NCBI GenBank assembly: GCA_013373595.1
Contig: JABXHO010000012.1
Span: 1-49,999, forward strand
Direction of reading: 5' to 3'
DNA: 49,999 nucleotides
Origin: Flavobacteriales bacterium
Lineage (GTDB): Bacteria > Bacteroidota > Bacteroidia > Flavobacteriales_D > Crocinitomicaceae
Shown: one piece after another, positions 22,466 to 38,024 of the stretch
Layout: every line of letters starts with the position of its first letter
Position numbering within the stretch: position 1 is the first letter of the stretch
Made by a program: the position numbers and the translations under genes
The notes under the pieces: generated by a model
What the model was told of the DNA's origin: nothing
Seen by the model: only the letters and a program-made list of their open reading frames with translations
Database searches by the model: none

Positions 22466-23494
22466 CTACTTCCAAATAACACCCAACTTTCCAGTTGTTT
22501 TTCCGCTTTCTAATGCTGAGTGCGCCTTCGCCATTTGATCCGAGGTATAACTTCCTCCTACCTGTGGCTTGATCTTCCCTTCGGAATACAATTCCACCAC
22601 AGATTTCAAACAATGTTCGAGCACACGGGGCTTGTTATCTGCTATTTTGAGCATGTTTACGCCCAAAATATTCTTGGAACGCATCATCAACACAATGGGT
22701 GTCAAGAAGCCCATTTTTCGAACGAAATTCAATTTGGAGAGAATTCCCCACTTCCCATTCGCTAGTTCCGATCCGCCAAAGATGATCATTCGTCCACCAG
22801 AGCCGAGTAAAGCCATGTCCTTTTTATACGTAGAACCTGCGACAGGATTGTAACTAATATCCAATCGTTCACCGTTCAGGTATTTTTTAATTTGTTCGGA
22901 ATACTCCGATTCACGGTAGTTCACCACATGATCGGCTCCTAAATCGCGCACAAATTGCTCTTTGTTCGACTGTCCAACCTTTGCAATCACTTCTGCTCCT
23001 TTCAGCTTTGCCAATTGAATCAAAATAGAACCTACTCCACCTGCCGCTGCGTGAATGAGTACGCGGTCAATCGAATGAATCGGTGTTAAGTATTCTGCCA
23101 TGTAATAAGCTGTTACGCCTTGTGTACATAATGCCAATAATTCAATAGGATCTTGATCGCCAACAGCAACGGTAGCATAATCGTTGGTTACTACGTGCTT
23201 TGAATAGCCACCAAAACGACAGAAAGCAATCACTCGTTTATTCAAGTTCTCCGTATTCGCGTTCGGTCCGCAAGCGATCACTTTTCCTACAACTTCGTAT
23301 CCAACAACGCATGGAAAAGGTGGAGCTTCACGGTAGAGTCCACGGCGTGCCATCACGTCTGCATAATTCAATCCGAATGCTTCTGTTTCCACCAACACTT
23401 CGGATTCTTTGAGTTCAGGAACTTCAAATGACCGTAGGTCGAATGCTTCCTCTGCAGTTCCAGTTTTCGTTAAAAAAAATGCGCTTGATTCCAT
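22466..23494 (-). CDS. Zinc-independent medium-chain dehydrogenase (quinone oxidoreductase, VAT-1-like)
   Basis: A 342-residue MDR-superfamily enzyme. The N-terminal GroES-like part carries FGLNYADVMARRGLY and PPFPCVVGYEVVG. The nucleotide-binding part has HAAAGGVGSILIQLAK, then GADHVVNYRE and GGRMIIFGG, and the C-terminus ends GKTTGKLGVIWK. The residues that hold zinc in alcohol dehydrogenases are absent, so it should be an NADPH-dependent quinone or enone reductase; the closest group in style is the VAT-1/synaptic-vesicle-like one. Substrate unknown. It is a single gene, with 139 nt to rsmI upstream, and is followed by a terminator-like hairpin. Confidence 0.88.
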   Translation of the reverse strand: MESSAFFLTKTGTAEEAFDLRSFEVPELKESEVLVETEAFGLNYADVMARRGLYREAPPFPCVVGYEVVGKVIACGPNANTENLNKRVIAFCRFGGYSKHVVTNDYATVAVGDQDPIELLALCTQGVTAYYMAEYLTPIHSIDRVLIHAAAGGVGSILIQLAKLKGAEVIAKVGQSNKEQFVRDLGADHVVNYRESEYSEQIKKYLNGERLDISYNPVAGSTYKKDMALLGSGGRMIIFGGSELANGKWGILSKLNFVRKMGFLTPIVLMMRSKNILGVNMLKIADNKPRVLEHCLKSVVELYSEGKIKPQVGGSYTSDQMAKAHSALESGKTTGKLGVIWK

Positions 23495-23633
23495 CGTCGA
23501 TTCGTCTTTGGGGTTCGAAACGAATGTACAATTTTTTCTTTACCGCGAAGGCATGGATTTGCTTATTTGGGGTGAAATGAAACCTGCTAGTCGTCCATTT
23601 CGGCACCGCTCAACGCACGTGCTCAACGTCCGA

Positions 23634-24308
23634 TTAGTCTTTTTTCCCTTCAATCACGACAACGATTTCTCCTTTTGGTGGATGGGCTGCGTAATGCGCT
23701 GCTACTTCAGCGGCAGTTCCACGTTGAAACTCTTCGTACATTTTGGTGATTTCCCGGGCCACACACACACGGCGATCTTCTCCTAGAAATTCACCAATTT
23801 GATTGAGGCATTTTACCAATCGATGAGGCGACTCATAAAGAACAATGGTTCGTTCCTCCTCTGCCAAAACCTTCCAACGGGTTTGTCTTCCTTTTTTATG
23901 CGGAAGAAACCCTTCAAACACAAATTTATCACATGGAAATCCACTAGCGACAACCGCAGGAATCAGCGCTGCTGGTCCAGGCAAGCATTCGATTTCAATT
24001 CCTTCTTTCAAACATTCGCGAACGAGCAGAAAGCCAGGATCAGAAATTGCTGGCGTTCCAGCGTCCGAAACCAACACACACATTTCATTGGCGCGAATTC
24101 GGTCTACCGTCAACGCAAGTGACCTGTGCTCATTGTGTGCATGAAACGGTATGCACGGCTTGCTGATTTCCAAATGTTTCAACAAACGGTTCGTTGTACG
24201 AGTATCTTCTGCGAAGATCAAATCAGTTTCCTGCAAAATTCGAATTGCACGAAGGGTAATATCTTCTAAATTTCCAATGGGTGTTGGAACGAGAATGAGT
24301 TTTGCCAT
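23634..24308 (-). CDS. rsmI: 16S rRNA (cytidine(1402)-2'-O)-methyltransferase RsmI
   Basis: A 224-residue tetrapyrrole-methylase-fold enzyme. It begins MAKLILVPTPIGNLEDITLR and contains FAEDTRTTNRLLKHL, FHAHNE, LVSDAGTPAISDPGF, ECLPGPAALIPAVVASG, FEGFLPHKKGRQ and YESPHRL, all diagnostic of RsmI. It transfers a methyl group from SAM to the ribose of C1402 in the small-subunit rRNA decoding centre. It is slightly shorter than proteobacterial forms because the C-terminal extension is missing, as is common in Bacteroidota. It starts 7 nt after the RDD gene and is probably co-transcribed with it. Confidence 0.95.
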   Translation of the reverse strand: MAKLILVPTPIGNLEDITLRAIRILQETDLIFAEDTRTTNRLLKHLEISKPCIPFHAHNEHRSLALTVDRIRANEMCVLVSDAGTPAISDPGFLLVRECLKEGIEIECLPGPAALIPAVVASGFPCDKFVFEGFLPHKKGRQTRWKVLAEEERTIVLYESPHRLVKCLNQIGEFLGEDRRVCVAREITKMYEEFQRGTAAEVAAHYAAHPPKGEIVVVIEGKKD

Positions 24309-24315
24309 GTGTTTT

Positions 24316-25098
24316 TTAGCGCGTTAAAACGACATAATCTTGCAAGAGTGTTTGCAAAAACTGTAATCGCTTTTTGGGTGTTTCTTCCAAGCCGAGCAAA
24401 CGGGCCGATTCATCAGCCAGTTCGATGGCAAATTTCTTTGTCTCTGGATTAGGGTTGAGTCGCACGCGTTGAATCGTGTTTTTGATCAACAGCATGTCTT
24501 CATCGGTAAATCGCGTTGCATTGATGTAGGTTGGCGTGTGATTATCTTGACTTTTAATCGACAATACATCGCGCAAGGTGTAGCGCATGCTCGATTTGTT
24601 ACGAATCACGATGGTTCCTGCCATGGCATCTCCCATTCGCTGTCTACGTTCGGAGGTCCCCGCGAAAAGAATTCCAACGAGTCCAATGGCTATCCAAATC
24701 AAAATAGTGAATGGATCGGCGCTAATCCAAATAAAATCTCCTTTGAAAATCCAACGGGTAAATACTTCGCGAAGTCCTGGACGCTCACCTGAAATCGTCA
24801 CGACACGAATGCCCATGATGTACTTTCCGAGACTTTGTCCCTGCGTGATGTATTCAATCAATGGGTTGTAAAAAATCCACGGAATTTTAATCAGAAGTAG
24901 GTACACAAACATCGTTTTCCCTGCTCCTTCCGCATCCATTCCAAACGGACTCGATAATCCGAGAATCAACGAAAAAACCAAGAAATAAATGAAGAAGGCA
25001 ATCACATCCAGCATCGCCGCTACGGTACGCTGTCCCACAGAAGCGAGTTCGTACTCGACTTTCACATTTTGGGCGGATTCAAATTCGATGCTTTTCAT
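24316..25098 (-). CDS. RDD-family membrane protein
   Basis: A 260-residue inner-membrane protein. Residues 1-30 contain the RDD signature region (VEYELASVGQRTVAAMLDVIAFF, with Arg24 and Asp31). Hydrophobic segments fall at about 28-50, 64-85 and 128-148, and QGQSLGKYIMGIRVV is the second conserved motif. The C-terminal about 90 residues are soluble and helical (FTDEDMLLIKNTIQRVRLNPN). Function of the family is poorly defined; a transport role has been suggested for some members. First gene of a two-gene unit with rsmI. A near-consensus -7 sequence TATCTTTA lies about 35 nt upstream. It is divergent from hemA. Confidence 0.85.
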   Translation of the reverse strand: MKSIEFESAQNVKVEYELASVGQRTVAAMLDVIAFFIYFLVFSLILGLSSPFGMDAEGAGKTMFVYLLLIKIPWIFYNPLIEYITQGQSLGKYIMGIRVVTISGERPGLREVFTRWIFKGDFIWISADPFTILIWIAIGLVGILFAGTSERRQRMGDAMAGTIVIRNKSSMRYTLRDVLSIKSQDNHTPTYINATRFTDEDMLLIKNTIQRVRLNPNPETKKFAIELADESARLLGLEETPKKRLQFLQTLLQDYVVLTR

Positions 25099-25319
25099 TC
25101 TGATTTTGCGATTAACAATCTGCGTCGAGATAAAGATACATTTTTGCTCGAATTTTCCTGTTTTTCGCCGTCATTTCTTGATTTCAACTCAACATTCAAT
25201 TCAAAATCAACAATTTCCAGTTATGGCGCATTCTCAGTACAATTTAGATACATTCTAAATATCCAAAATATGACAAAAGTATGACATTAAACCTGTGCTA
25301 ACTCCCCATCTTTGTTGTT

Positions 25320-26567
25320 GTGATTACGGAAAACGGGTTAAAAACCTTACATATCATCGCATTTACGCACAGAAATCTGGCTGTTTCGGAGATTGGGCAA
25401 TTGCACATCGATCCAGACAATCAGCAAGCGGCACTTACAAACGCTAAGGTGCGCTTTAGTTTACAAGAGTTAATGTACTTGACAACCTGTAACCGAATTG
25501 AGTATGCGATTGTCACCAATGAAGAAGTAAACGATGACTTCATCAACCGCTTCATTGAAACCGTTTATCCGGAAGTGTCTCCCGAAAACCGTAATGCCCT
25601 AGTACAAGGTGCTGAAGTTTACCGAGGAGTAGATGCTGTTCGCCATCAATTGTCTGTTGCATCTTCAGTAGATTCAATGGTTGTTGGAGAACGTGAAATT
25701 ATCACACAAGTTCGCAATGCTTTCGACAGTTCGAAAAAGAACAGTTTGACGGGCGACTGCCTTCGATTAATGATGCGACACACAATTGAAACAGCAAAAC
25801 GTGTCTACACTGAGACGAACATTTCTCGTCGACCTGTTTCCGTTGTTTCGTTGGCTTATCATCAATTGCGTGACATGAACGTTCCGTTGGATTCGCGTAT
25901 TTTGATCGTTGGAGCAGGTGTTACGAATACCAACATGGGTAAATTCCTTCGTAAGCACGGTTTCACGAACTTCAACGTCTTCAACCGAACATTATCGAAA
26001 GCTGAAACCTTGGCGAATGACCTCGGAGGAGTGGCTCATCCACTTTCTCACTTGAGCGAGTTCGATAAAGGATTTGACATTATTATTACGTGTACTGGAT
26101 CGGAAAATCACATTCTATCTCCAGAAATTTACACGCATCTTTTACAAGGAGAAACAGATCGTAAAGTGGTGATTGATATTGCCATTCCACAGGATTTGTC
26201 TCCCGAAATTATTGCTGCTCATTCGGTTCACCACATTTCAGTGGAAGTATTACAGAAGATTTCCAACGAAAACTTGAAAGTACGTTCACGTGAAGTAGAA
26301 CATGTTCAGGCAATCATCGACGAAGCGGTAGAAAGCTTCAGAGAGTTGTACAAAGAGCGCGCGGTAGAACTTGCCATGCGTTCGGTTCCAACCAAAGTGA
26401 AAGAAATTAAGCACAATGCGCTCAACCAAGTATTCAAGAATGAATTGAGTACCCTCGACGACGATGCGCGTGCGGTTTTGGAAAATGTAATCGGCTATAT
26501 GGAAAAGAAGTACATGAGTATGCCGATGCTCATGGCCAAAGAAATCTTGCTAAACAAGCAATCTTGA
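25320..26567 (+). CDS. hemA: Glutamyl-tRNA reductase
   Basis: A 415-residue enzyme starting at GTG 25320. Motifs: AFTHRNLAVSE, the catalytic Cys57 in YLTTCNRIEYA, VGEREIITQVR, the nucleotide-binding RILIVGAGVTNTNMGKFL, FNRTLSKAETLA and VIDIAIPQDL. It reduces glutamyl-tRNA(Glu) with NADPH to glutamate-1-semialdehyde, the first committed step of C5 tetrapyrrole synthesis. It is the first gene of hemA-hemC-hemD; its stop overlaps the hemC start by 4 nt (26564-26567). The intergenic region to the RDD gene (25099-25319) contains the divergent promoters, but no perfect -7/-33 pair was found for hemA. Confidence 0.96.
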   Translation: MITENGLKTLHIIAFTHRNLAVSEIGQLHIDPDNQQAALTNAKVRFSLQELMYLTTCNRIEYAIVTNEEVNDDFINRFIETVYPEVSPENRNALVQGAEVYRGVDAVRHQLSVASSVDSMVVGEREIITQVRNAFDSSKKNSLTGDCLRLMMRHTIETAKRVYTETNISRRPVSVVSLAYHQLRDMNVPLDSRILIVGAGVTNTNMGKFLRKHGFTNFNVFNRTLSKAETLANDLGGVAHPLSHLSEFDKGFDIIITCTGSENHILSPEIYTHLLQGETDRKVVIDIAIPQDLSPEIIAAHSVHHISVEVLQKISNENLKVRSREVEHVQAIIDEAVESFRELYKERAVELAMRSVPTKVKEIKHNALNQVFKNELSTLDDDARAVLENVIGYMEKKYMSMPMLMAKEILLNKQS

Positions 26568-27460
26568 AAAAACACGTTATTATTGGATCACGAGGAAGCG
26601 ATCTCGCCTTATGGCAGGCCAACTTCGTGAAAGGTGAATTGGAAAAACAGGGATGTACTGTTGATATCAACATCATTAAAACACAAGGCGATGCGATCCA
26701 GCATTTGAGTTTCGACAAACTCGAAGGGAAGGGATTTTTCACCAAGGAAATTGAAGATGCCTTGCTATCGAAATCGATTGATCTTGCCGTGCATTCGCAC
26801 AAAGATTTGGAAACCAATCCACCAGCAGGATTAAAAATTGCCTGTGTTTCATCACGTGCTAACCCTTCCGATTTACTGTTGATTCGCAAAGAATGTGTTG
26901 ATGCATCGCAAAAGTGGAGTTTGAAAGCCGAAGCAACAGTTGGAACTTCCTCTGCTCGACGCAAAACACAATTCTTGCACTACCGCAACGATGTTACCAT
27001 CAACGATTTGCGCGGAAACGTTCCAACACGTATCGATAAATTACGCCAGGGAAATTACGACGCGATTATTCTTGCCAAAGCAGGTGTTGACCGTCTCGAA
27101 TTAGATCTCAGCGAGTTCGAATGCGTAGAATTGAATCCAACGGAATTTGTTCCAGCTCCCGCTCAAGGTGTTTTGGGACTCCAAATCCGTGAGGACGATG
27201 CCGAAATGACCGAATTGATGTCAGCGATGAACGACACAGCGGTTGAGTTACGCATTTCTCTAGAACGTAAAATTTTGAATCTCCTCGATGGAGGATGTCA
27301 ATTGCCTTTGGGAGCGTTTTGCACGGAAGATCATCATTTGTATGTTGCCTACGCGGAACAAACAGGCGCAGAAAGTGCCTTCCTACACTACGAAGTGACG
27401 AACTTCGACGGCATGGCGGAAAAAGTAGTCGCTGATTTGAAAAACGCATTCGTCGAGTAA
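26564..27460 (+). CDS. hemC: Hydroxymethylbilane synthase (porphobilinogen deaminase)
   Basis: A 298-residue enzyme starting at TTG 26564, overlapping the hemA stop as TTGA. Motifs: IGSRGSDLALWQANFV, FTKEIEDALL, DLAVHSHKDLET, VGTSSARRKTQ, LRGNVPTRIDKLR and the cofactor-carrying Cys245 in LLDGGCQLPLGAFC. It joins four porphobilinogen units into hydroxymethylbilane using a covalently bound dipyrromethane cofactor. The overlapping TTG start suggests translation coupled to hemA. hemD follows after 3 nt. Confidence 0.96.
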   Translation: MKKHVIIGSRGSDLALWQANFVKGELEKQGCTVDINIIKTQGDAIQHLSFDKLEGKGFFTKEIEDALLSKSIDLAVHSHKDLETNPPAGLKIACVSSRANPSDLLLIRKECVDASQKWSLKAEATVGTSSARRKTQFLHYRNDVTINDLRGNVPTRIDKLRQGNYDAIILAKAGVDRLELDLSEFECVELNPTEFVPAPAQGVLGLQIREDDAEMTELMSAMNDTAVELRISLERKILNLLDGGCQLPLGAFCTEDHHLYVAYAEQTGAESAFLHYEVTNFDGMAEKVVADLKNAFVE

Positions 27461-27463
27461 GTC

Positions 27464-28168
27464 GTGTCTAAGCGCATCTTCATATCGAAAAATGCTTCTG
27501 AAATAGCCTCCCTCCGCTCGCAATTTGAAGCTAAGGGATATGAGGTCATTGCCCACTCGTTTCTTTCATTCTCTGCGGTAGAATTCGAAATTCAGCATCC
27601 CTACGACGTGATCTTCTTTGGAAGTCCACGCGCGGTCATTTTCTTCAAAGCCAGTGAATCCATTTCCCCCGATAAATTGATCGCTTGCGTCGGCTCCAAA
27701 ACGGCCGAAGTACTCGAATCGATGGGACATAAAGTCGACTTTGTGGGCAAAAACAGTTCCGATCCGAAAACGGTAGCAGAAGATTTTAAAAACTGGTTGA
27801 CTGAGCGGAGTCGAAGTCAACGTGCTTCGAAGGCCCAAAGTGAAGAGCGCAGTACCCGTGTGCTGTTTCCCCTCTCTAGTCGCAGTTTAAAAACGATTGC
27901 TGGGGCTATTCCTGAAGATCAGAAGGAAGAAGTGGTGGTGTATCAAACGGAAGTGAAGGGAAAAGTGATTCTTCCGTGCGATGTGTACGCGTTTTCGAGT
28001 CCGAGTAATGTGGAAGGTTTTTTTGAGGCGAATACGATTCCTGAGGGGGCAGAAGTGATTGCTTGGGGAACGAGTACGGAGAGGGCTTTGAAGGAATATG
28101 CGGAGAAGATGGGATTTGAGGTTAAAACAATGACCAAATCCGACTTAACTGTAATTTTTGGAATTTGA
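27464..28168 (+). CDS. hemD: Uroporphyrinogen-III synthase, with an in-frame repeat insertion
   Basis: A 234-residue protein starting at GTG 27464 (MSKRIFISKNASEIASLRSQ). It has the HemD two-domain pattern: DVIFFGSPRAVIFF, IACVGSKTAEVLESMGHKVDFVG, VLFPLSSRSLKTIAG, VVVYQTEVKG, YAFSSPSNVEGFF and IAWGTSTERALKEYAEKMGF. It closes and rearranges hydroxymethylbilane into uroporphyrinogen III. Residues about 112-133 (LTERSRSQRASKAQSEERST) form a polar, basic insertion between the domains, encoded in part by a palindromic repeat at 27796-27821. The active-site regions look intact, so the enzyme is probably functional. Last gene of the hem operon. Confidence 0.92.
   Translation: MSKRIFISKNASEIASLRSQFEAKGYEVIAHSFLSFSAVEFEIQHPYDVIFFGSPRAVIFFKASESISPDKLIACVGSKTAEVLESMGHKVDFVGKNSSDPKTVAEDFKNWLTERSRSQRASKAQSEERSTRVLFPLSSRSLKTIAGAIPEDQKEEVVVYQTEVKGKVILPCDVYAFSSPSNVEGFFEANTIPEGAEVIAWGTSTERALKEYAEKMGFEVKTMTKSDLTVIFGI
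27796..27821. repeat. REP-like palindromic element inside hemD
   Basis: The arms GTTGACT (27796-27802) and AGTCAAC (27815-27821) are a perfect 7-bp inverted repeat flanking GAGCGGAGTCGA. The core CTGAGCGGAGTCGAAG is one I recall as a widespread intergenic palindrome in Bacteroidota and other bacteria; here it is read in frame within hemD. Confidence 0.6.
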
Positions 28169-28211
28169 AATAATCCTGATTTTAATTATCTTCACTTTAA
28201 TTAACCACTAA

Positions 28212-28227
28212 AGTTGAGTTCTCAACT
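28212..28227. terminator. Small perfect inverted repeat after hemD, weak terminator candidate
   Basis: AGTTGAGTTCTCAACT folds as a 6-bp stem with a 4-nt loop and is followed by AATTTTC on the plus strand. It lies 44 nt past hemD at the edge of the A/T-rich cassette. Confidence 0.35.
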
Positions 28228-28326
28228 AATTTTCTTGGCATCTTATCCGCTTGATGTTTAAAAGAATGTTAGTAAAGATTATGATTTGGTGGTCTGAAGA
28301 GACTATTAACTGACGATATTCACACT

Positions 28327-29550
28327 ATGAATTTCATTGATTTATTTTCTGGTGCTGGAGGACTTTCCGAAGGATTCATAAATGCTGGTTTCAAACCATT
28401 GGCTCATGTTGAGATGGACTCTTCGGCTTGCAAAACAATAGAAACAAGATTAGTTTATCACAAACTAAAATCTGAAAAGAATCTCGAGGCATATTATGAA
28501 TATATATTAGGAAAAGTTTCGAGAAAAGAGTTCCTAGTTAAGAACTCAAATGAAGAAATTGAAAAGTCCGTAATTAATATGGGGATTGGTGGTAAGAATA
28601 ACCAAGAAATCTTCAATAAAATTGATACCCTAAGAGGGCAAAATGAAGTTGATTTGATTATTGGTGGACCACCCTGTCAAGCATATTCACTTGTTGGTAG
28701 ATCGAGAGATAAAAACCGAATGGAGAATGATCCAAGAAATTATTTGTATAAAGAGTATGCGAAATTTTTGAAGTATTTCAACCCACGTTTATTCGTTTTT
28801 GAAAATGTACTAGGATTAATCACTGCAAAAAAAGGTGACTATTTCAAGAACATGAAAGCCTACTTTAAAAGAATCGGATATCAATTGGACTACGATGTAT
28901 TAAATTCCTCTGACTTTGGGGTTTTGCAAAAAAGAAAGAGAATTATTTTAATCGGCTGGAGAAAGGATGAAGAATTCATATATCCAACATTTGAGAAGAT
29001 CAAAAACCCATATACGACAAAAGTCATTTTCGAAGATCTTCAAACCCTACAACCCGGAGATTCCAATAATATTACAAAATACGCTAAACCGACTAACGAA
29101 TATCTCCAGAAGTTTCAGTTACGAAATGGGGTTGACTTTGTTACTCAGCATATCACGCGTAATCATAACGAACGTGATCTCGAAATCTATGAAGTGGCTA
29201 TCAAAAAATTACTAAAGGATGGAGAACGATTGAAATACCCTGACCTACCTGAAAGACTCAAAACTCACAAGAATGAATACTCGTTCTTGGATAGGTTTAA
29301 AGTAGTGAACCCTGATGATCATTCTCACACTATGGTCGCTCACATCTCGAAAGATGGACATCACTATATTTTTCCTGACTTAAAACAAATTCGTTCATTG
29401 TCGGTAAGAGAGGCGGCACGAATCCAATCTTTCCCAGATGACTTCTATTTTGAAGGTGGAAGAACTGCCGCCTTTAGGCAGATAGGAAATGCCGTTCCAC
29501 CTTTGATGGCAAAGGCAATCGCAACTAAGATTAAGATTAAATTAGAATGA
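28327..29550 (+). CDS. DNA (cytosine-5-)-methyltransferase, first gene of the cassette
   Basis: A 407-residue C5-methyltransferase. Motif I is FIDLFSGAGGLSEGF, motif IV GGPPCQAYS with catalytic Cys117, motif VI FVFENVLGL, motif VIII QKRKRIILIG, and motifs IX/X VREAARIQSFPDDF and IGNAVPPLMAKAIA. The target-recognition region is about residues 225-345. An insert of about 60 residues (YEYILGKVSRKEFLVKNSNE region) sits between motifs I and IV. It methylates cytosine in a specific DNA sequence that cannot be read from the protein. The sequence is visibly A/T-richer than the flanking hem genes, and the gene overlaps the next by 4 nt (ATGA, 29547-29550), so it should form one operon with the ATPase/kinase and receiver genes. 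Confidence 0.95.
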   Translation: MNFIDLFSGAGGLSEGFINAGFKPLAHVEMDSSACKTIETRLVYHKLKSEKNLEAYYEYILGKVSRKEFLVKNSNEEIEKSVINMGIGGKNNQEIFNKIDTLRGQNEVDLIIGGPPCQAYSLVGRSRDKNRMENDPRNYLYKEYAKFLKYFNPRLFVFENVLGLITAKKGDYFKNMKAYFKRIGYQLDYDVLNSSDFGVLQKRKRIILIGWRKDEEFIYPTFEKIKNPYTTKVIFEDLQTLQPGDSNNITKYAKPTNEYLQKFQLRNGVDFVTQHITRNHNERDLEIYEVAIKKLLKDGERLKYPDLPERLKTHKNEYSFLDRFKVVNPDDHSHTMVAHISKDGHHYIFPDLKQIRSLSVREAARIQSFPDDFYFEGGRTAAFRQIGNAVPPLMAKAIATKIKIKLE

Positions 29551-31727
29551 CAAAAGATTCAACATACAATATTAGACCCGCAGCTAGACTCATTCATACT
29601 ATTGGAAGCGACTTAATTGGAGATTCATATGCCGCTGTCGTTGAACTTGTTAAAAATTCCTACGATGCTGATGCCAGTTATGTCAATATTAATTTTGCAT
29701 ACAAAACAATTGATAATAAGGATTCTCTAGTTATCACAATAGCTGATGACGGGCACGGGATGGATTTTGAAACTGTCATAAATAAATGGCTCGTACCTGC
29801 AACCGATGATAAACTTAAGAGAAAGAGAAGCCCATATAAGAAACGTGTTTTTCAGGGTCGAAAAGGGATCGGTCGGTTTGCTTCTTCGATCCTAGGACAG
29901 GAAATGACTCTATCTTCTATTACTAAATCGGGGGAAAAATCAACAGTTGTAATCGATTGGAGAATATTCAACACTGACGATTTTTTAGAAAATATTGAAC
30001 TTCTTGTTGAAAAAGAAACAACTACAGACTCTTCTGGTACAATTATGGAAATTGTGGCTCAAGATGAACAAAATGATAATAAATTATCTGCTTGGGACAA
30101 AAGTTCAATTGACACACTAATTGGAGAATTGCGAAAATTGATTTCCCCTTTCAATGACTTTGATAAAGATGAGTTCAGAATAAACCTTTCCTTTTCAAAC
30201 TGCCCGTTTGAAGGGTACAATGACACGAAATTTGAGATTGAAAATTATCCCATAATAGAATTGTATGATTACAGAATAAGCGGCTCTATTGACAACTATG
30301 GTAAAGCCAATCTCCTCTATGAAAATAATGTATTAGAGGCAAAGCAATCAGAAAAGATCGAGACTCAATTTGACTTATCAGGAAACAACAAATACTGCGG
30401 CAATATCAGTATTGATTTTAGAGTATTTGATAGAGAACCAGAAGCTATTGACAACCTAATCAATAAGGGTTTAATCGACCCCATTTCAGAAAAATATATG
30501 GGGAAAAATGATGCTAAGCGCTTATTGAATGAAGTTTATGGTGCAAAGATTTATAAGAATCATTTTAGAATTCGACCTTACGGAAGTGATGGTGTGGACT
30601 GGCTAGATTTAGATAAAGACAGAATCCAGAATCCATCTATGAAAATCGGAAACAATCAATTAGTAGGATTTATAACTATTGAATCTGAAGAATTATCAAG
30701 GCTAGAGGAAAAAAGTGCTAGGGATGGACTAAAAGAAAATGAATATTTCTTTGGGTTAAAGGAATTGTCAAGGTTAACTTTAAAAGAGTTAGAAATTCGA
30801 AGATTTACATTTCGAGATAAGAGCCTTAAAAGTCGAAAGGGAAGAACTTCAATTCAAGATTCAATTTCGGATTTATTTAGCTTTTCGGATTTATCTAATA
30901 ACATTCAGGCAAAATTAGAGCAATTTAAAGTCGGCAAAGAAAATATTAATCAGATCAAGGCAATTCTCAAGAAAGAGGAAACTGCCAAAGCTGGTTTATT
31001 GGAAGACATTCAAAAAACAATAGCTATTTATCAAGGACAAGCGACACTTGGTAAAATCGTAAACTTCATTTTACATGAAGGTAGAAAACCAATCCAATAC
31101 ATAAACTCAGAAACAGATGTTCTTGAACGCTACCTTAAACATTATAGAGCGACAAATGATCAAGAATTATTTATTGAAATACACGAGAGTATTAATGGTT
31201 TTAGAAGAAACGGAAAGTTAATTTCTGATTTATTCAAGAGAGTAAATCCACTTGCTAGTCAAAGGAGGGGAAATCGAAAAAACTTTAATGTCAAAGTAAG
31301 CCTGATAAATTCAGTCAAAATATTTAAAACTTCAATGTCTGAGTTGAATATAGAATGTACTATTGAATGCAACGATGATATTGAGTTTTATGGCTGGGAA
31401 GAAGACTTATTTACTGCTGTTACTAACTTAATTGAAAACAGTATTTATTGGCTTGGTAAAGTAGAAAGGGATCAGAAGCTAATTTCAATTTCAGTTCAGG
31501 AAAATCCCAATTCATTTCAATTGGATTTTAGAGATAATGGACCTGGCTTAACCGATGCTGAAATTGAAAGCGATATTATATTCGAACCAGGCTATTCTAA
31601 AAAGCATAATGGAACTGGCCTCGGCTTGGCTATCGCAGGTGAATCAATAGAACGATTGAATGGAAAACTAAAAGCTCGAAAATCTGAAAGTGGTGTATAC
31701 TTCCAAATTGAAATTGAGAAAAAATGA
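29547..31727 (+). CDS. Double-GHKL protein: MORC/MutL/Hsp90-like ATPase fused to a histidine kinase core
   Basis: A 726-residue cytoplasmic protein. Residues about 10-130 form a GHKL ATPase of the Hsp90/MutL/MORC type: N-box VVELVKNSYDADA (Asn37), IADDGHGM (67-72) and GRKGIGRFA (104-112). About 150-470 are an unassigned middle region, followed by a coiled-coil stretch. About 500-530 carry an H-box-like motif ILHEGRKPIQYI (His510). About 590-726 form a second ATPase, of the histidine-kinase kind: NLIENSIYW (Asn631), DNGPGL (663-668), EPGYSKKHNGTGLGLAIA (G2 at 689-694). No membrane or PAS domain is seen. MORC-like GHKL proteins (paraMORCs) are reported in bacterial restriction-modification neighbourhoods; the fusion to a kinase core suggests ATP- and DNA-state-dependent signalling to the receiver protein encoded next. 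Overlaps of 4 nt on both sides. A/T-rich. Confidence 0.85.
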   Translation: MTKDSTYNIRPAARLIHTIGSDLIGDSYAAVVELVKNSYDADASYVNINFAYKTIDNKDSLVITIADDGHGMDFETVINKWLVPATDDKLKRKRSPYKKRVFQGRKGIGRFASSILGQEMTLSSITKSGEKSTVVIDWRIFNTDDFLENIELLVEKETTTDSSGTIMEIVAQDEQNDNKLSAWDKSSIDTLIGELRKLISPFNDFDKDEFRINLSFSNCPFEGYNDTKFEIENYPIIELYDYRISGSIDNYGKANLLYENNVLEAKQSEKIETQFDLSGNNKYCGNISIDFRVFDREPEAIDNLINKGLIDPISEKYMGKNDAKRLLNEVYGAKIYKNHFRIRPYGSDGVDWLDLDKDRIQNPSMKIGNNQLVGFITIESEELSRLEEKSARDGLKENEYFFGLKELSRLTLKELEIRRFTFRDKSLKSRKGRTSIQDSISDLFSFSDLSNNIQAKLEQFKVGKENINQIKAILKKEETAKAGLLEDIQKTIAIYQGQATLGKIVNFILHEGRKPIQYINSETDVLERYLKHYRATNDQELFIEIHESINGFRRNGKLISDLFKRVNPLASQRRGNRKNFNVKVSLINSVKIFKTSMSELNIECTIECNDDIEFYGWEEDLFTAVTNLIENSIYWLGKVERDQKLISISVQENPNSFQLDFRDNGPGLTDAEIESDIIFEPGYSKKHNGTGLGLAIAGESIERLNGKLKARKSESGVYFQIEIEKK

Positions 31728-32830
31728 AAAAACTTTGCCTATTAATTGTAGAAGATGATGAAGTAGCAATCGCTTCATACAGAAGAGAAATTAAAGCGTA
31801 TAATTTGGATGCTGATATTAAAATTTCGGAGACTCCTGTTAACAATAAAGAAAAAGCAATATCACTATTGCGTGATGCTGAAAAAGATTTTGATGCCGCC
31901 ATTGTCGATTTAGATCTGTTAGGTTCTGGAGGAAAAGACTCTTCAGGTAATGACATAATAAGGGAAATTAGAAAAAATCTTCGGTTTCCTGTATTTGTCA
32001 TCACTGGCACCCCCCAGAACGTGGCACCAGATTTAAGAGAGGAATCAATCCTATTCAAAATTAAGACACGCGGTGAAAGGGAAGACATTGGTTACTTAGA
32101 CCAATTGATGAATATATATAAGACTGGAATAACAAATATTGTAAACAGGAAAGGAACTATTGAACAGATTATTTCTAATATCTTTTGGAACCATCTTTCA
32201 TCGTCTGTTGACTTATGGGTAAACGATGATTCGCGAACACCCGAGGAAAAGGAAAAGTCCCTCTTGAGGTATACCTTGCTTCATATGCAAGAATATCTTG
32301 ACGAAAAAAATTATCATCCAAGTGAATTCTATATTACAAAACCTATTAAGAAAGATGTATTCACTGGAGATATTGTTGAATTCGATGAAGCACGATGGAT
32401 CATTTTAACTCCTTCTTGTGACATTGTTAAACGTCAAGACGGCACGAGAAATACGCGGAAAATACTGTTATGTAAAATAAAACCATTAGAAAGTGAAGTT
32501 AAAAATTATGGAATTTTATCTAAGGAAACAAGCGCCAATAATGACAATCGAAAAAGGCTAAGCCGATACATTCAAAACAATGCTGGCGGGAACTTTCATT
32601 TTATCCCTAAACACAAAACAATCTATCCGGGTCTAATCGATTTCCAAGATAAGTTAACCATAGATGAAAGTCTCGTAGACAAGTATTTACTCGAAGAAAA
32701 AATGAAACGATTGGCAACTGTTTCCATGCCATTCTTGAAGGATATAATTTCTCGATACTCCAATTATTTCGCTCGACAAGGCTCACCAGATTTTAACTCG
32801 GACGAAGTCTATGCGTCAATTTTTAGTTAA
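31724..32830 (+). CDS. Receiver-domain protein with unassigned C-terminal domain
   Basis: A 368-residue cytoplasmic protein. Residues 1 to about 118 form a response-regulator receiver domain with all key residues: acidic pair Asp11/Asp12 in LLIVEDDEV, phospho-acceptor Asp62 in AAIVDLDLLG, Thr94 in FVITGTP and Lys112 in ILFKIK. It should accept phosphate from the kinase encoded immediately upstream (4-nt overlap). Residues about 120-368 are not a standard DNA-binding output domain; they include a helical part (SLLRYTLLHMQEYLDEKN), a strand-rich part with GDIVEFDEARWIILTPSCDIV (Cys232, Asp233) and a C-terminal helical part ending FNSDEVYASIFS. I cannot assign this region; as the only unexplained part of the system it is the best candidate effector. 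The stop lies 3 nt from that of the convergent protease gene. Confidence 0.82.
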   Translation: MKKLCLLIVEDDEVAIASYRREIKAYNLDADIKISETPVNNKEKAISLLRDAEKDFDAAIVDLDLLGSGGKDSSGNDIIREIRKNLRFPVFVITGTPQNVAPDLREESILFKIKTRGEREDIGYLDQLMNIYKTGITNIVNRKGTIEQIISNIFWNHLSSSVDLWVNDDSRTPEEKEKSLLRYTLLHMQEYLDEKNYHPSEFYITKPIKKDVFTGDIVEFDEARWIILTPSCDIVKRQDGTRNTRKILLCKIKPLESEVKNYGILSKETSANNDNRKRLSRYIQNNAGGNFHFIPKHKTIYPGLIDFQDKLTIDESLVDKYLLEEKMKRLATVSMPFLKDIISRYSNYFARQGSPDFNSDEVYASIFS

Positions 32831-32833
32831 TAT

Positions 32834-35008
32834 TCACTCCACCACAACTCTCTCAACCCAATTCACACCTCCAATATTCACCTCGACCAAATAAACACCC
32901 GACGCGTATCCATCCAAGTTCAATTGAACCAAGTTGCTTCCTTGCATAGCAAATAATTGATGCGCTTGCAATTGCTTTCCAGCCAAGTCTGTTACTGCGA
33001 TGTTTGCTGCGCCTGCATTGGCCACTGCAAAGCGAACGCTCACGTTTCCTGAGGTTGGATTTGGGAATACTGCCACCGTTTCGATAACGTTTCCGCTTTC
33101 GTCGATTCCAACGAGTTCATCGGACGGTGCACCTTTGTAGATGTTGATGTCTTCTAGGTAGAAATTATTTCCTCCACCGCTTTCAAATTCGAACTTGTAG
33201 CGGAAGTTTTCAACCATGTAGGCACTTGTGATATTTGTCATGTGCACTGTTGTCCAATCGTTCAAGCTTGTTGGTGTGTACGCAGCGTTTTGTGCCACAG
33301 ATGACAATACGTTTCCACAAATCGTTTTTCGTTGTGCCCATGTTTCGCCACAATCGTTGGTGATAAACACTTTCAAACATTCGTCGTTCAAATCGTAGCG
33401 CTTCTTGTACGCATAGCGGAAACTTAAGGTCACCGATTCCGTTGCTGGATCAATTACCGATAAATCTACTGGTGCTGAAATGAGTTCATCCGACTCACCC
33501 GCAGGCTGACCAAAATTCTCCAGTTTCGCACTTTTCCATCCGGTTCGATAAATTCCTTCCACAATTTCGAAGGCACTTCCTCCCGCGTTGTAAATCGACC
33601 ACTGATCTGTTGTATTGAAATCCGTGTACGCTTCGAAACTCTCGATTAAATCTATCGCGGCTGGCGAAGGAATAACCGAAATGTACGCTGGTTTCAACTC
33701 CCACTGTGTGGATACACCGTCCGAAACAACCAATTCTACGTCATAACTTCCAGAAGTCAAAAATTCGATCGATGGTTCTTGTGAAGTCGCCGAAGTTCCG
33801 TTTACAAAGTTGTAATCAGTTCCTTCAACACCGCTAATTGACCAACTCCATGATGTTGGAGCGTGAAAACTGAAATCATTAAAGTCAACGGTCGTTCCAC
33901 TACAAACGCTTCGGTTTAATGCCTCGAAATCTGCTTTACACAGTTGATCGGGTTCATTCACTCCCGTTGCCACTATGTTCGCTGGATCTGTGAGTGAAGC
34001 TAGGAAACTAATATTCACAAAGTTCGCCTGCATGATGTTCACTTGATTGCGCGAGAACATGTTTTGGCAGCTGTTGTAACTCATGTAGTTTTCGATTTGA
34101 TCCATCGCATCGAATCCGTAAGAATCGCCCACAGGAACGGTAGAACATGAATTCCAAGAAGAATTACAGCTCCAGTTCGCCTCTTCTTGTGGTGGCGTAT
34201 CACAACAGTAATCTCCATTTGCGGAACAGTCGTTGGTATGACATCCTGTTTGGTTTCCTCCACCCCAACCTACGTTGAAGATGTGATTCAATCCCAATGC
34301 ATGTCCCATTTCGTGCGTTAAGGTACGACCGTCAGATCCGGTTGCCGTTTCGATACTTCCGAAAGAGTCATGACGCATCAAAATTCCGTAACCATTTCCT
34401 CCAGCACCGCCATAAGGCAAGTACGCGTAACCCAATGTGATTCCACTTCCGCTCGTTTCAATCGAGTTAACGATCCAAATATTGAAATACTCATCGCGCG
34501 GCCATTGATCTGAACCTCCATTGGATGTGTACTTACAATCTTCTCCAGCATTGTACGTCAAATGTGGTGCATTTACACGAACAATTCCGTTGGTACACTC
34601 CCCATTCGGGTCGATTTTAGCCAATTTGAACTCCATGTTCATGCTTCCCGCTTCTGGAGAGAATGGTGCATCAAATGTGTTCCGTGTGTCTACTGTATCC
34701 GCATTCAATCGGTTGTAATCCAAATTCAAAATGTCTAAAGCGCTTTGCACCTGCTCATCTGAAATATTACCATATCCGTTGTCATGAATAATGTGAACCA
34801 CTACAGGCACCGTGATTGTTGCACGATTTCCCGCATTGTTATTTCTGTACTGCGCTGCCGCCATCATTTCCTGATGAAAGGTCTCCTGCAAGTTCGGATC
34901 GTTAGCAAACTGCTGTTGAATCAATTGATCCGTTGCACACCATTCTCCTGATTGAGAAAAGCCCAAAAATGCGCTAAGCAATACAACTAATGTAAGGTAG
35001 TTTTTCAT
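32834..35008 (-). CDS. M43 (pappalysin-like) zinc metalloprotease with PKD and T9SS sorting domain
   Basis: A 724-residue secreted protein. Signal peptide MKNYLTLVVLLSAFLGFSQS; prodomain to about 65; catalytic domain about 70-345 with the zinc site HEMGHALGLNH (His232, Glu233, His236, His242) and the Met-turn IENYMSY; multiple cysteines (CDTPPQEE, CNSSWNSC); a PKD-like domain (about 365-455, SWSWSISGVEGTDYN); a choice-of-anchor J/MAM-like domain (about 465-640, ending NFYLEDINIYKG); and a type A T9SS sorting domain (VFPNPTSGNVSVRF, then GVYLVEVNIGG). It should cut extracellular proteins or peptides; substrate unknown. It is a tandem paralog of the gene at 35071-37212. Its start lies only 11 nt after a terminator-like hairpin. 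Confidence 0.92.
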   Translation of the reverse strand: MKNYLTLVVLLSAFLGFSQSGEWCATDQLIQQQFANDPNLQETFHQEMMAAAQYRNNNAGNRATITVPVVVHIIHDNGYGNISDEQVQSALDILNLDYNRLNADTVDTRNTFDAPFSPEAGSMNMEFKLAKIDPNGECTNGIVRVNAPHLTYNAGEDCKYTSNGGSDQWPRDEYFNIWIVNSIETSGSGITLGYAYLPYGGAGGNGYGILMRHDSFGSIETATGSDGRTLTHEMGHALGLNHIFNVGWGGGNQTGCHTNDCSANGDYCCDTPPQEEANWSCNSSWNSCSTVPVGDSYGFDAMDQIENYMSYNSCQNMFSRNQVNIMQANFVNISFLASLTDPANIVATGVNEPDQLCKADFEALNRSVCSGTTVDFNDFSFHAPTSWSWSISGVEGTDYNFVNGTSATSQEPSIEFLTSGSYDVELVVSDGVSTQWELKPAYISVIPSPAAIDLIESFEAYTDFNTTDQWSIYNAGGSAFEIVEGIYRTGWKSAKLENFGQPAGESDELISAPVDLSVIDPATESVTLSFRYAYKKRYDLNDECLKVFITNDCGETWAQRKTICGNVLSSVAQNAAYTPTSLNDWTTVHMTNITSAYMVENFRYKFEFESGGGNNFYLEDINIYKGAPSDELVGIDESGNVIETVAVFPNPTSGNVSVRFAVANAGAANIAVTDLAGKQLQAHQLFAMQGSNLVQLNLDGYASGVYLVEVNIGGVNWVERVVVE

Positions 35009-35019
35009 AATGTATAGAT

Positions 35020-35052
35020 AAAAAAAGACCTCTCCACGTGAATGGAAAGGCC
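35020..35052 (-). terminator. Terminator-like hairpin between the tandem M43 protease genes
   Basis: On the minus strand GGCCTTTCCA pairs with TGGAGAGGTC (35027-35052), 10 bp with two G-U pairs, followed by seven T (35020-35026). It ends the upstream paralog but stands 11 nt before the ATG of the next gene, so it may act as an attenuator. Confidence 0.75.
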
Positions 35053-35070
35053 CTCTGATTCGTTTAATTT

Positions 35071-37212
35071 TTACTTAACAACAAACTGAATTGTTTTTTG
35101 TGATCCACCAATCTGAACATTCAAGAAATACATTCCAGATGCCAAGTTAGATGTGTTCATCAATACCAAGTTTGTTCCTTCCGTTCCATTTACGGTTGCC
35201 GACTGAGCAATTTTTCCAGAAACATCTTGAACGGTCAATGTCGCTTGATCTGCATTTTTCAATGAGAAACGAACGCTCAAATCATTTTCAACTGGGTTTG
35301 GATATACAGCCAATGCTTCAATTTCGAAATCACTTTCTGAAACTCCAACAATTTGATCAGATGGTGTTCCTGAGTACAAGTTGATATCATCAATGTAAAT
35401 GTTATTTCCACCGTCTGATTCAAACTCGAAACGACAACGTGCCTGATCTGTCCAGTACGCACTTGTGATGTTCGTCATGTGAACCGTTACCCAATCAGAT
35501 TGTGATGATGGAGTCCATGATGAGTTTTGCGCTGTTGTCGACAAGATTGATCCTGTTAACGTTTTTCTTGGCGCCCAGTTTTCACCACAGTTTGGCGTAA
35601 CGTAAACCTTCAATACTTCGCTATTCGAAGAATAACGCTTCACGTAAGAGTAACGGAAGCTCATTGTCATTCCAGTAGATGAGTTGATCGATGACAAATC
35701 AATTGGTGCCGAAATCAAATCATCGAAGTTCCCTGTAGACTGACCGAAGTTAACCAACTTCGCACATTTGTTTCCTGTATATCCAGTTCCTGTGTGAATT
35801 TGCCATCCATTACCTGCTGGGTTTATTACCTCCCATTCCTCAATAGCGTTGAGTGTTGAAAAGTTTTCAAACGACTCGTGGAAAGGCAAGCTAGAAGCCG
35901 CTGGCAACACACGAATGTATGCTGTTTTTGTTTCATTGTCAGAGTTTGTTCCGTCAGATGACGTTAACGTTACTGCGTAAAGCCCAGGTGTACTGTATGT
36001 AACAGATGGGTTTTGAGCTGTTGACGATGCTGGAGAACCACCCGTAAACGTCCATGTCCAATCGCTTACTGCGTTGTATGATAAATCTGTGAAGTTGATT
36101 GTGTTTCCAGCACAGATTGTTGTACGGTCTGCTTTGAACTCAGCTTTACATAAATAGGCTGATCCCGTTACACCCACCGCTGCAAGGTTTGACGATGAAA
36201 TCACATTATTTCTTCCTCCAACACTTGAAGTAATTGCATTTCTCATGCGCGTAACCTGTCCAGGTGTAAACATTTTAGAACAGTATGAGTAGTCCATGTA
36301 GTTCTCTACGTTTGCCAAAACTCCACATGACGCTTCACCTTGGTTACATGATGTTACACCAATTGTATTCGGTGTATCAGACACGCCATCATCAGAAGAA
36401 CAACTTGATGCATTTCCTGGGTTGTTGTTTGGTCCCCATGTATGAGAAAGATTCAACCAGTGTCCTACTTCGTGAGTTAAGGTACGACTTGAATACGTTG
36501 AAGACGTTCCAATAGAACCAACGTAGTTGTGTAGTACCCAAATTCCGTTTGCCATACTCGTTCCTCCCCAGTTTGAAGGGTTGTACGTATAACCTGCCGC
36601 ACCACCGATATCACCACAAATGAAGATGTTTAAGTATTCATCTCCTGGAAATTGTCCGTTATAAACGTCATTTCCAGCAATGATCGCTTGTACTTGCGCT
36701 ACTCCATCGCTTCCATCATTCGTAATTGGATTTTGAGTATGCGTGATTCCACTGAAGCAAGCCCCATTTGGAGCGATTGTTGCCAAAGCAAATTCGATTT
36801 CAACGTCAGCTGGTAATCCTTGGAAAGCTGCATTTACATTGTTCGCGTCTGCGTTCTGTAAACGGTAATCTCTATTCAATATAGAGAGTGCATCCATGAT
36901 TTGATCGTTGCTAATATCTTCAATTCCTCCGTTGTGCAATACGTGAAATACAACTGGAATCGTGTAAATTGTTCCTTTTGGAACAGCCACTGGGTTCGCC
37001 GCTTCGTATTGGCGAATTTGTTCATCTTGAGCAAATACTGCTGCGGCAGCAGGGTTCGCTAGGAGTTCTTGATGTTTTTTGTGTGTAAGACAGTATTCAA
37101 CTGTTTCTCCCTCACGTACATTCGCGGGGTCAATTTGCGTTGTTTGAGTTTGAGAAAAGGATGCCAAAGCAAAGGCAAACATCCCCAACGCAGTGAGTAT
37201 TGTTTTTTTCAT
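35071..37212 (-). CDS. M43 zinc metalloprotease with PKD and T9SS sorting domain, paralog of the next gene
   Basis: A 713-residue secreted protein. Signal peptide MKKTILTALGMFAFALASFS; prodomain to about 85; catalytic domain with zinc site HEVGHWLNLSH (His247, Glu248, His251, His257) and Met-turn VENYMDYSYC; PKD domain (about 370-440, SDWTWTFTGGSPASS and LTSSDGTNSD); choice-of-anchor J/MAM-like domain ending NIYIDDINLYSG; and a T9SS sorting domain (VYPNPVENDLSVRFSL, GMYFLNVQIGG). Domain order is the same as in the 32834-35008 protein, so this is a gene duplication. It should be exported by T9SS and degrade extracellular protein. A promoter with the usual -33 and spacing lies at 37241-37271. 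Confidence 0.92.
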   Translation of the reverse strand: MKKTILTALGMFAFALASFSQTQTTQIDPANVREGETVEYCLTHKKHQELLANPAAAAVFAQDEQIRQYEAANPVAVPKGTIYTIPVVFHVLHNGGIEDISNDQIMDALSILNRDYRLQNADANNVNAAFQGLPADVEIEFALATIAPNGACFSGITHTQNPITNDGSDGVAQVQAIIAGNDVYNGQFPGDEYLNIFICGDIGGAAGYTYNPSNWGGTSMANGIWVLHNYVGSIGTSSTYSSRTLTHEVGHWLNLSHTWGPNNNPGNASSCSSDDGVSDTPNTIGVTSCNQGEASCGVLANVENYMDYSYCSKMFTPGQVTRMRNAITSSVGGRNNVISSSNLAAVGVTGSAYLCKAEFKADRTTICAGNTINFTDLSYNAVSDWTWTFTGGSPASSTAQNPSVTYSTPGLYAVTLTSSDGTNSDNETKTAYIRVLPAASSLPFHESFENFSTLNAIEEWEVINPAGNGWQIHTGTGYTGNKCAKLVNFGQSTGNFDDLISAPIDLSSINSSTGMTMSFRYSYVKRYSSNSEVLKVYVTPNCGENWAPRKTLTGSILSTTAQNSSWTPSSQSDWVTVHMTNITSAYWTDQARCRFEFESDGGNNIYIDDINLYSGTPSDQIVGVSESDFEIEALAVYPNPVENDLSVRFSLKNADQATLTVQDVSGKIAQSATVNGTEGTNLVLMNTSNLASGMYFLNVQIGGSQKTIQFVVK

Positions 37213-37240
37213 AGTTCGAGCTTGTTTCTACTTGAGACGC

Positions 37241-37271
37241 ACAAGATACGGACAACCTTACCAAAATACAA
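37241..37271 (-). promoter_or_regulatory. Probable promoter of the tandem M43 protease genes
   Basis: On the minus strand: TTTG (TTG at 37269-37271), 20-nt spacer, TATCTTGT (37241-37248), a partial match to TAnnTTTG. The spacing is the same 20 nt as in the two adhesin promoters. The leader is about 25 nt. Confidence 0.5.
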
Positions 37272-37319
37272 ACTTTTTGACTGAGTAGTATGCTTTAAAC
37301 CTTAAACGGTATTGGACAG

Positions 37320-38024
37320 CTATTTAACGGTAATATCTCTCAAATCATAGAAAAGCTCAGCGTCGTATTCAGATTCCGTCAAAAGGAATAAACGCTCTGC
37401 TGCCTCTTTGGGAGAAAATAATTTATCTTCTTCTTTCAAGTTGTGAAAGTTTTCGGAAGACGAGAAATTCTCAGGGTTTGCAGAACGAATTTCCGACTGC
37501 ATCCCCGTATCGATCACTCCGGGAGCAACACAATAAACTTTCGGATGATTTCCTTTTTCCTGTTCTTCAAGGAAGAAGGTTTCTGTGTGCATGTTCAACG
37601 CTGATTTTGATGCACAATAGGAAGCCCAAGAAGGGATCGCTCGGTTTGCTGCGCCAGAACTAATGTTCACCAAGGAGAACAAATCTTTGTTTCCAACGTG
37701 CTGATAAATCTGCTGCGTGAGTAGAACTGGTGCCGATACATTCACGGTCATGACGTGATCCACGTCTACTATTTCCATGTCACTCAAGCGTTTGATTTCA
37801 CCAATTACTCCTGCATTATTGATGAGTGTTACTTCTCCTGAAAATGCTTCGAATTGTAGCTGTCGTACTGCGTCTAAATCGGACAGATCACAAGAAATAA
37901 AGGAAAAATTCTCGTGTTCAAGATCACTTGAACGACCAATTCCTGTCACTTTCTCTCCTTTGGAGAGATACAGCTCAGCAATGGCTTTACCCAATCCGCG
38001 TGAAACACCCGTTATGAAAATCAT
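37320..38024 (-). CDS. Short-chain dehydrogenase/reductase
   Basis: A 234-residue classical SDR. The cofactor motif TGVSRGLGKAIA, the NNAG motif (LINNAGVIGE), the catalytic Ser region (LVNISSGAA) and YCASK with Tyr and Lys are all present. It resembles the sepiapterin reductase-like and benzil reductase-like SDRs in its short N-terminus (MIFITGVSRGLG) and its C-terminal AAERLFLLTESEYDAELFYDLRDI. NADP(H) preference is suggested by the Arg in GVSRG but not proven; substrate unknown. Its start overlaps the end of the TrkA-like gene by 4 nt (38021-38024), so the two are translationally coupled. Confidence 0.88.
   Translation of the reverse strand: MIFITGVSRGLGKAIAELYLSKGEKVTGIGRSSDLEHENFSFISCDLSDLDAVRQLQFEAFSGEVTLINNAGVIGEIKRLSDMEIVDVDHVMTVNVSAPVLLTQQIYQHVGNKDLFSLVNISSGAANRAIPSWASYCASKSALNMHTETFFLEEQEKGNHPKVYCVAPGVIDTGMQSEIRSANPENFSSSENFHNLKEEDKLFSPKEAAERLFLLTESEYDAELFYDLRDITVK

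Follow-up and report, generated by a model that had tools for sequence, protein, structure and literature searches.

Two-component-like elements of the HEF_HK/Response_reg_2 type (PF19191/PF19192) were predicted by Bellieny-Rabelo et al. in 2021 (PMC8011034), and the wider neighbourhood network described there includes N6/N4 methyltransferases. GHKL ATPases of restriction-modification (R-M) systems, the paraMORCs, are the subject of Iyer et al. 2008 (PMC2292703, available part of the text), and PorX is described, in the available part of PMC12839542, as a response regulator whose output domain is a PglZ phosphodiesterase. The locus compared here with these systems is a three-gene cassette in contig JABXHO010000012.1 of a Flavobacteriales bacterium (assembly GCA_013373595.1), of which the first 49,999 nucleotides, called the window, were analysed. 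The cassette encodes a C5 cytosine DNA methyltransferase, a double-GHKL kinase and a receiver protein, together referred to as the trio. With a probability of about 0.5, it is a mobile R-M-like unit whose restriction enzyme is replaced by a two-component phosphorelay.

Comparison with described systems

The core gene architecture was already published in 2021 (PMC8011034). The comparison set of HEF_HK elements, drawn from the 395 genomes that also served for the survey of the trio, consists of the 8 loci that score above the cut-off of PF19192. The order methyltransferase, kinase, receiver protein is found in 8/8 of them and is the order of the trio; their kinases are homologous to the trio kinase (E 3.7e-71 to 2.5e-57), and their receivers share the C-terminal output domain of the trio (hhalign, query residues 204-353, probability 92.9, E 3.8e-7), aligning with trio-branch receivers in this domain only. 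The trio in turn has the HATPase_c_3 - DHp - HATPase_c order, the adjacent receiver gene and the upstream C5 methyltransferase of the HEF_HK elements, and Vsr and HNH_2 neighbours occur in both groups. The core common to the HEF_HK loci and the trio branch is thus the methyltransferase, the double-GHKL kinase and the output domain.

Plain membership of the trio in PF19191/PF19192 was excluded, since both models failed on it while the controls matched: 3/3 HEF-clade kinases with PF19191 (73-100 bits) and 2/2 receivers of the PF19192 type. The window kinase has no PF19191 match at E<=10, and PF19192 was found neither in the window receiver (E<=1) nor in the genome to which it belongs. PF19192 was absent from 8/8 receiver proteins and PF19191 from 7/7 kinases scanned in the trio branch and its distant kin, at E limits of 1 or 10. 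The sizes differ as well, the kinase having 726 aa in the trio versus 966-1001 in the HEF_HK loci and the receiver protein 368 versus 525-575 aa. The HEF_HK kinases form a separate branch (support 100) in a tree built by a quick method, in which long branches, those of the HEF group and of locus L172 among them, meet and call for caution. The trio branch, which extends over many bacterial phyla, two archaea and conjugative plasmids, is therefore a group that both Pfam models miss in every member scanned.

The trio kinase resembles the paraMORCs, as presented in the available part of PMC2292703, in its N-terminal GHKL module with a following domain that may correspond to their S5-type module, its invariant ATPase residues, and its methylase and Vsr neighbours. 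Unlike them, the trio has a histidine-kinase core, a receiver partner and no helicase in the unit; a term search of the 2008 text gave no occurrence of 'receiver'. The helicase and nuclease neighbourhood of paraMORC R-M operons is lacking in the window trio. The first-pass annotation had taken the missing nuclease or helicase as a difference from the usual arrangement; the lack of a nuclease does not distinguish the cassette from its relatives, as many of their loci are also without recurrent nuclease neighbours and the core architecture is that of PMC8011034.

In two-component systems with enzymatic output, such as PorX, a receiver is followed by a helical linker and an output domain, as in the trio receiver, and PorX chains are among the Foldseek matches listed for the receiver model. 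Unlike PorX-type systems, the trio has an output domain unrelated to the named families tested and a kinase that is soluble and has a second GHKL ATPase module where the sensor would be. As regards DISARM class 2, the best PADLOC match of the trio methyltransferase is DrmMII (PDLC02649, 579 bits, residues 1-405); none of DrmA, DrmB and DrmC appeared in the Pfam scan of ten flanking genes, which did not seek these partners by profiles of their own.

Measured against the open-licence literature searched, what is new is the trio branch itself, the modular exchange of its parts, the version with an N6/N4 methyltransferase beside the kinase-receiver pair, the replacement of Vsr by a glycosylase, and the unnamed output domain.

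The three proteins

The cassette (28327-32830) comprises three plus-strand open reading frames (ORFs), of which neighbours are joined by ATGA overlaps. ORFs, Pfam, and profile and structure matches agree with the identities given in the first-pass annotation. The methyltransferase matches PF00145 (C5 methylase, E 2.9e-67), and its catalytic Cys117 is kept in 40/40 aligned relatives. The alignments (68 receiver, 52 kinase and 40 methyltransferase rows) were chosen by hand and leave out cut, split, near-duplicate or other-subfamily rows plus some intact ones.

The kinase contains HATPase_c_3 at residues 29-150 (E 5.4e-26) and HATPase_c at residues 618-724 (E 5.8e-18) according to Pfam. Its AlphaFold2 (AF2) model (mean pLDDT 83) consists of an N-terminal MORC-like ATPase module, long helices, a DHp-like helix pair and a C-terminal CA domain; DHp is placed between the two ATPase domains by the model and the conserved His, with no Pfam DHp match. 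The model resembles the HK853 core in Foldseek. The MORC-like nature of the ATPase, proposed earlier, is supported to the extent that the N-terminal module resembles the ATPase module of SMCHD1, a MORC-like protein, at a score that is modest (rank 42, 412 columns, TM-score 0.30 by query and 0.41 by target). Residues E33, N37, D67 and K106 of the N-terminal GHKL module and N627, N631 and D663 of the C-terminal one are present in 52/52 aligned relatives, as is His510, followed by Glu in 49 and Asp in 3. Receiver Asp62 is invariant in 68/68, and with these two residues, the predicted phospho-acceptors, the trio possesses the conserved His and Asp of two-component systems. Given this invariance, both ATPase sites and the phospho-acceptors look active.

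Pfam gives no match for the third protein at E<=1. The profile of its family matches many solved receiver domains and response regulators in the PDB, and its AlphaFold model (mean pLDDT 92.7) matches receiver domains in Foldseek; on profile and model it is a receiver protein. In its output domain Glu201, Cys232, Arg351 and Gly353 occur in 68/68 aligned relatives and Asp233 in 67/68. The domain gave no convincing match in Pfam, NCBIfam or PDB sequences and is nameless in these libraries. When the whole receiver protein was compared by Foldseek with the PDB and viral models, the best of the 50 matches listed were mainly receiver-containing proteins, and none named a fold for the output domain. 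The domain is also found by itself: further genomes of the phylum sample encode it as a protein of 184-188 residues (L190:6057-6614, L191:5815-6378, L193:6135-6698, L195:5775-6338, L198:5821-6372). Three of these were scanned and had no Pfam match; a conserved 124-aa ORF precedes the stand-alone protein in L191, L193 and L195.

An unlikely reading of these proteins is a stripped type II R-M system: unmethylated sites would be cut by an endonuclease, so far unrecognised, in the output domain or in part of the kinase, and phosphorylation would be its safety catch. The modification methyltransferase of such a system is present in the trio, R-M logic needs a nuclease, the recurrent nuclease neighbours are missing from many loci, and PorX (PMC12839542, in its available part) is a precedent for a response regulator with enzymatic output. 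The N-terminal ATPase of the kinase moreover matches the N-terminus of the BbrUII/HgiDII restriction enzymes (NCBIfam, E 7.6e-17) and the PADLOC family REase_II (E 2.5e-12). The BbrUII match, however, ends at residue 138, and outside the ATPase stretch the three proteins show no nuclease family. Glu201, Cys232 and Arg351, the polar residues that are invariant in the output domain, are to our knowledge not a standard nuclease set.

Exchange of the methyltransferase

In loci L047 and L052 the kinases are 98.4% and the receiver proteins 91.7% identical, versus 55.3% for the methyltransferases; L047 comes from a metagenome assembly, in which mis-assembly is possible. In three other pairs of loci (L042/L043, L039/L041 and L078/L082) the kinases and receiver proteins are 76-80% and 57-77% identical and the methyltransferases 27-31% over the aligned part. 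L172 (1181-5899) combines the kinase-receiver pair with an N6/N4 amino-methyltransferase (PF01555, E 3.4e-28) in place of a C5 enzyme. Pairwise distances, calculated for rows with the common methyltransferase subfamily only, correlate between kinase and receiver with r=0.87 (51 loci), a value as high being reached in 0/999 permutations; the two correlations of the methyltransferase, with the kinase and with the receiver, are lower, at 0.61 (37 loci) and 0.65 (39 loci). The methyltransferase appears to be exchangeable, and the kinase-receiver pair appears to serve DNA methylation in general, because it is found with an amino-methyltransferase in L172 and, nearly identical, with unlike methyltransferases in L047 and L052. 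Exchange or fast divergence seems to affect the receiver proteins too, as in L115 and L116, where the methyltransferases are 97%, the kinases 81% and the receiver proteins 46% identical.

Such combinations are odd for a dedicated regulator. They argue against the trio being a regulatory epigenetic switch, in which the kinase-receiver pair would sense a cellular cue and tune the output of the methyltransferase or host genes. That reading draws on the appearance of a soluble two-component pair, on the lack of a restriction nuclease, on the up-regulation of such genes in a plant pathogen infecting potato (PMC8011034), and on an H. pylori two-component system that, according to the available part of PMC10810217, controls a methyltransferase. 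It is made quite improbable by the pairing with unlike methyltransferases, by a receiver in which Pfam and NCBIfam recognise no DNA-binding output domain, and by a patchy, partly plasmid-borne distribution that better fits a defence or selfish element.

Distribution and probable gain of the cassette

Of 127 confirmed relatives in genome contigs 80 were listed, and counts refer to 85 loci from Bacteria and two archaea, with L021 (a near copy of L020) and L004-L008 left out. A C5 methyltransferase gene lies at most 3 kb from the receiver gene in 77/85 loci, the contig end cutting 5 of the 8 misses, and a gene of the kinase family adjoins the receiver gene or lies within a few genes of it in 83/85. 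The trio thus recurs as a unit elsewhere, which supports the first-pass interpretation, and its uniqueness to this genome is ruled out. Vsr is encoded within 3 kb in 36/85 loci and an HhH-GPD-type protein in 4/85, in two of which it is Pfam-named. Both families would act in the repair of C-to-T damage derived from 5-methylcytosine.

In the distant phylum member L196 (5494-10452) the order is kinase (a 929 aa frame with an N-terminal extension), receiver, methyltransferase. In L070 and L117 the kinase gene is broken into several frames, as if decayed. The records L107, L115 and L116 (Enterococcus, Streptococcus and Haemophilus) have a HaeIII-type restriction cluster and a second C5 methyltransferase upstream of the kinase, and the HaeIII-type restriction enzyme family PF09556 scored in L116. 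No one neighbour of this sort is frequent; clusters of the kind are missing around the window trio, whose flanking genes are of housekeeping types, and around many further loci.

Recurrence also bears on the idea of a solitary methyltransferase kept by chance with a decayed partner operon. The own-genome search for PF00145 gave two matches, both of them the cassette gene, which makes it the sole C5 methyltransferase found in the genome, and Vsr was not found there by the genome search. In spite of this the idea is highly improbable, as the three frames are open, their active-site residues are intact, and conservation of the trio extends across phyla.

The trio looks horizontally acquired in this genome. 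The receiver protein is absent from 98/98 other genomes of the relatives set (genus, family, order). hemC was found in 33/34 genus genomes, the own one included, and in the 13 of the other 32 for which the hem region was fetched the hemD junction is without the trio (13/13). A homologue of the window metalloproteases is the next searched-for gene after hemD in 12/13 relatives, the contig of L165 ending there. The gaps from hemD to the protease, measured between alignment ends, range from 28 to ~1,360 bp, the first piece in L162 being a fragment. In the closest relative, whose hemC is 88% identical, hemD joins the protease across ~0.1 kb containing, by eye, a terminator-like inverted repeat. 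The sole methyltransferase-like match in the hem stretches of relatives has 26% identity and lies farther downstream, in L169.

The A/T-richness pointed out earlier is clear: the G+C content is 0.356 in the methyltransferase gene, 0.336 in the kinase gene and 0.352 in the receiver gene, versus a mean of 0.434 (sd 0.014, minimum 0.399) in the 24 other non-overlapping window ORFs of >=200 aa. Codon bias gave no such signal. The trio deviates in base composition and not in codon choice, because its codon-usage distances (0.105, 0.135 and 0.107) fall inside the range of the other window ORFs (0.059-0.148). The cassette was either gained here or lost repeatedly elsewhere, and base composition favours gain. 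Neither of the findings that would speak against the first-pass interpretation was made, as the trio is not at this locus in the relatives examined and its three genes do co-occur elsewhere. Both edges of the cassette carry the 8-base repeat ATATTCAC (28316-28323 and 32830-32837); it is at chance level, other 8-mers matching equally, and is not claimed as a target-site duplication.

Relatives of the trio are carried on conjugative Campylobacter plasmids. In L059 and L060, from a WOR-3 bacterium and a Methanophagales archaeon, the trio kinases are 82% identical and each trio is followed by an HhH-GPD glycosylase gene; cross-domain transfer is likely on this likeness. Both records are metagenome assemblies. 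Carriage by phages was rejected: for the receiver protein 2 pattern matches in viral contigs were not confirmed, and 50,697 phage records gave 0 matches.

Proposed mechanism

If the cassette is an R-M-like unit with a phosphorelay, a specific and rather tentative form of it is phosphorylation-gated restriction. The relay would be the restriction arm; it would read the marks set by a methyltransferase that is interchangeable and may be of any chemistry, and would fire a new effector domain (TP-x-CD / RQG-x-P), the one also found stand-alone. In the R-M-like reading as a whole, the methyltransferase, whose C5 motifs are intact, would mark the cell's own DNA. The MORC/MutL-like N-terminal ATPase of the kinase may clamp DNA, or DNA-bound methyltransferase, that lacks the mark. 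The kinase, with its His and two ATPase sites intact, would then autophosphorylate at His510, and the phosphate would pass to the invariant Asp62 of the receiver encoded by the adjacent gene. The phosphorylated receiver could free its Cys/Arg-conserved C-terminal domain as an effector that acts on the incoming DNA or on the infected cell. In many relatives Vsr or an HhH-GPD glycosylase would repair the C-to-T damage caused by 5-methylcytosine. Self-marking combined with a phospho-gated response fits because the methyltransferase is exchangeable, the kinase has a clamp-like ATPase, the output domain is of no known DNA-binding family, the genes lie on mobile DNA, and a deamination-repair gene is frequent.

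A system of this kind would let a reversible phospho-signal, instead of a committed nuclease, act on DNA methylation status, and would join two-component signalling to immunity. It would also explain how one sensor-effector pair serves different methyltransferases.

Several observations weigh against the phosphorelay-based R-M unit. In the open-licence literature searched, no experiment on a role of such trios in phage resistance or DNA sensing turned up, only the prediction paper of 2021. Nuclease families are absent from all three cassette proteins in Pfam, NCBIfam and PADLOC, barring the ATPase-only BbrUII/REase_II matches, and helicase and nuclease families are absent among the ten Pfam-scanned genes around the window trio (22469-38722). 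In L017, L048 and L063, which have room on both sides, the kinase-receiver pair has no C5 methyltransferase within 3 kb. Nor was the expected enrichment near known defence genes observed: PADLOC families are not clearly richer in neighbours at <=1.5 kb (136 ORFs) than in those at >3.5 kb (114 ORFs), in a weak test of first neighbours that counts per family and not by union and in which some ORFs are perhaps not genes. The far set holds 114 of 115 ORFs, one very long ORF being left out, and the near set includes 3/136 PF00145 ORFs that are the trio methyltransferases themselves (L043, L061, L078). A defence-gene hotspot is not shown by this weak test, the near and far neighbours both having scattered PADLOC matches. 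The first-pass interpretation, a transferred system coupling methylation status to a phosphorelay, is as a whole partly supported; its defence role and its phosphorelay are what we infer.

Position in the window

The features of the cassette and its junctions are collected in Table 1.

Table 1. Features of the cassette and its borders, in window coordinates
Feature	Position	Strand	Basis
C5 cytosine DNA methyltransferase gene (407 aa), DrmMII-like	28327..29550	+	PF00145, PADLOC, aligned catalytic Cys
Double-GHKL sensor-kinase-like gene (726 aa)	29547..31727	+	HATPase_c_3, HATPase_c, AF2 model, Foldseek
Response-regulator-like gene (368 aa): receiver, helical linker, output domain	31724..32830	+	PDB profile match, AF2, Foldseek
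Predicted phospho-acceptor codon, kinase His510 (motif HEGRKP)	31074..31076	+	Alignment and codon reading
Predicted phospho-acceptor codon, receiver Asp62	31907..31909	+	Alignment and codon reading
Output domain, ~residues 199-368, motif TP[AS]CD ... RQGxPD	32318..32827	+	Alignments, hhalign
Left junction, hemD stop to cassette start	28169..28326		Comparison with relatives
Right junction, 3 bases from receiver-gene stop to stop of convergent metalloprotease	32831..32833		ORF reading, relatives

The flanks carry ordinary host genes, as had been noted in the first pass. Upstream are the domains of hemA, hemC and hemD and downstream two M43 metalloproteases (Pfam), and the ten Pfam-scanned flanking genes are of metabolic, transport or protease types. 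The M43 metalloprotease genes (32834-37212) are arranged in tandem and encode secreted proteins with Por secretion tails; relatives have one or two copies with varied spacing.
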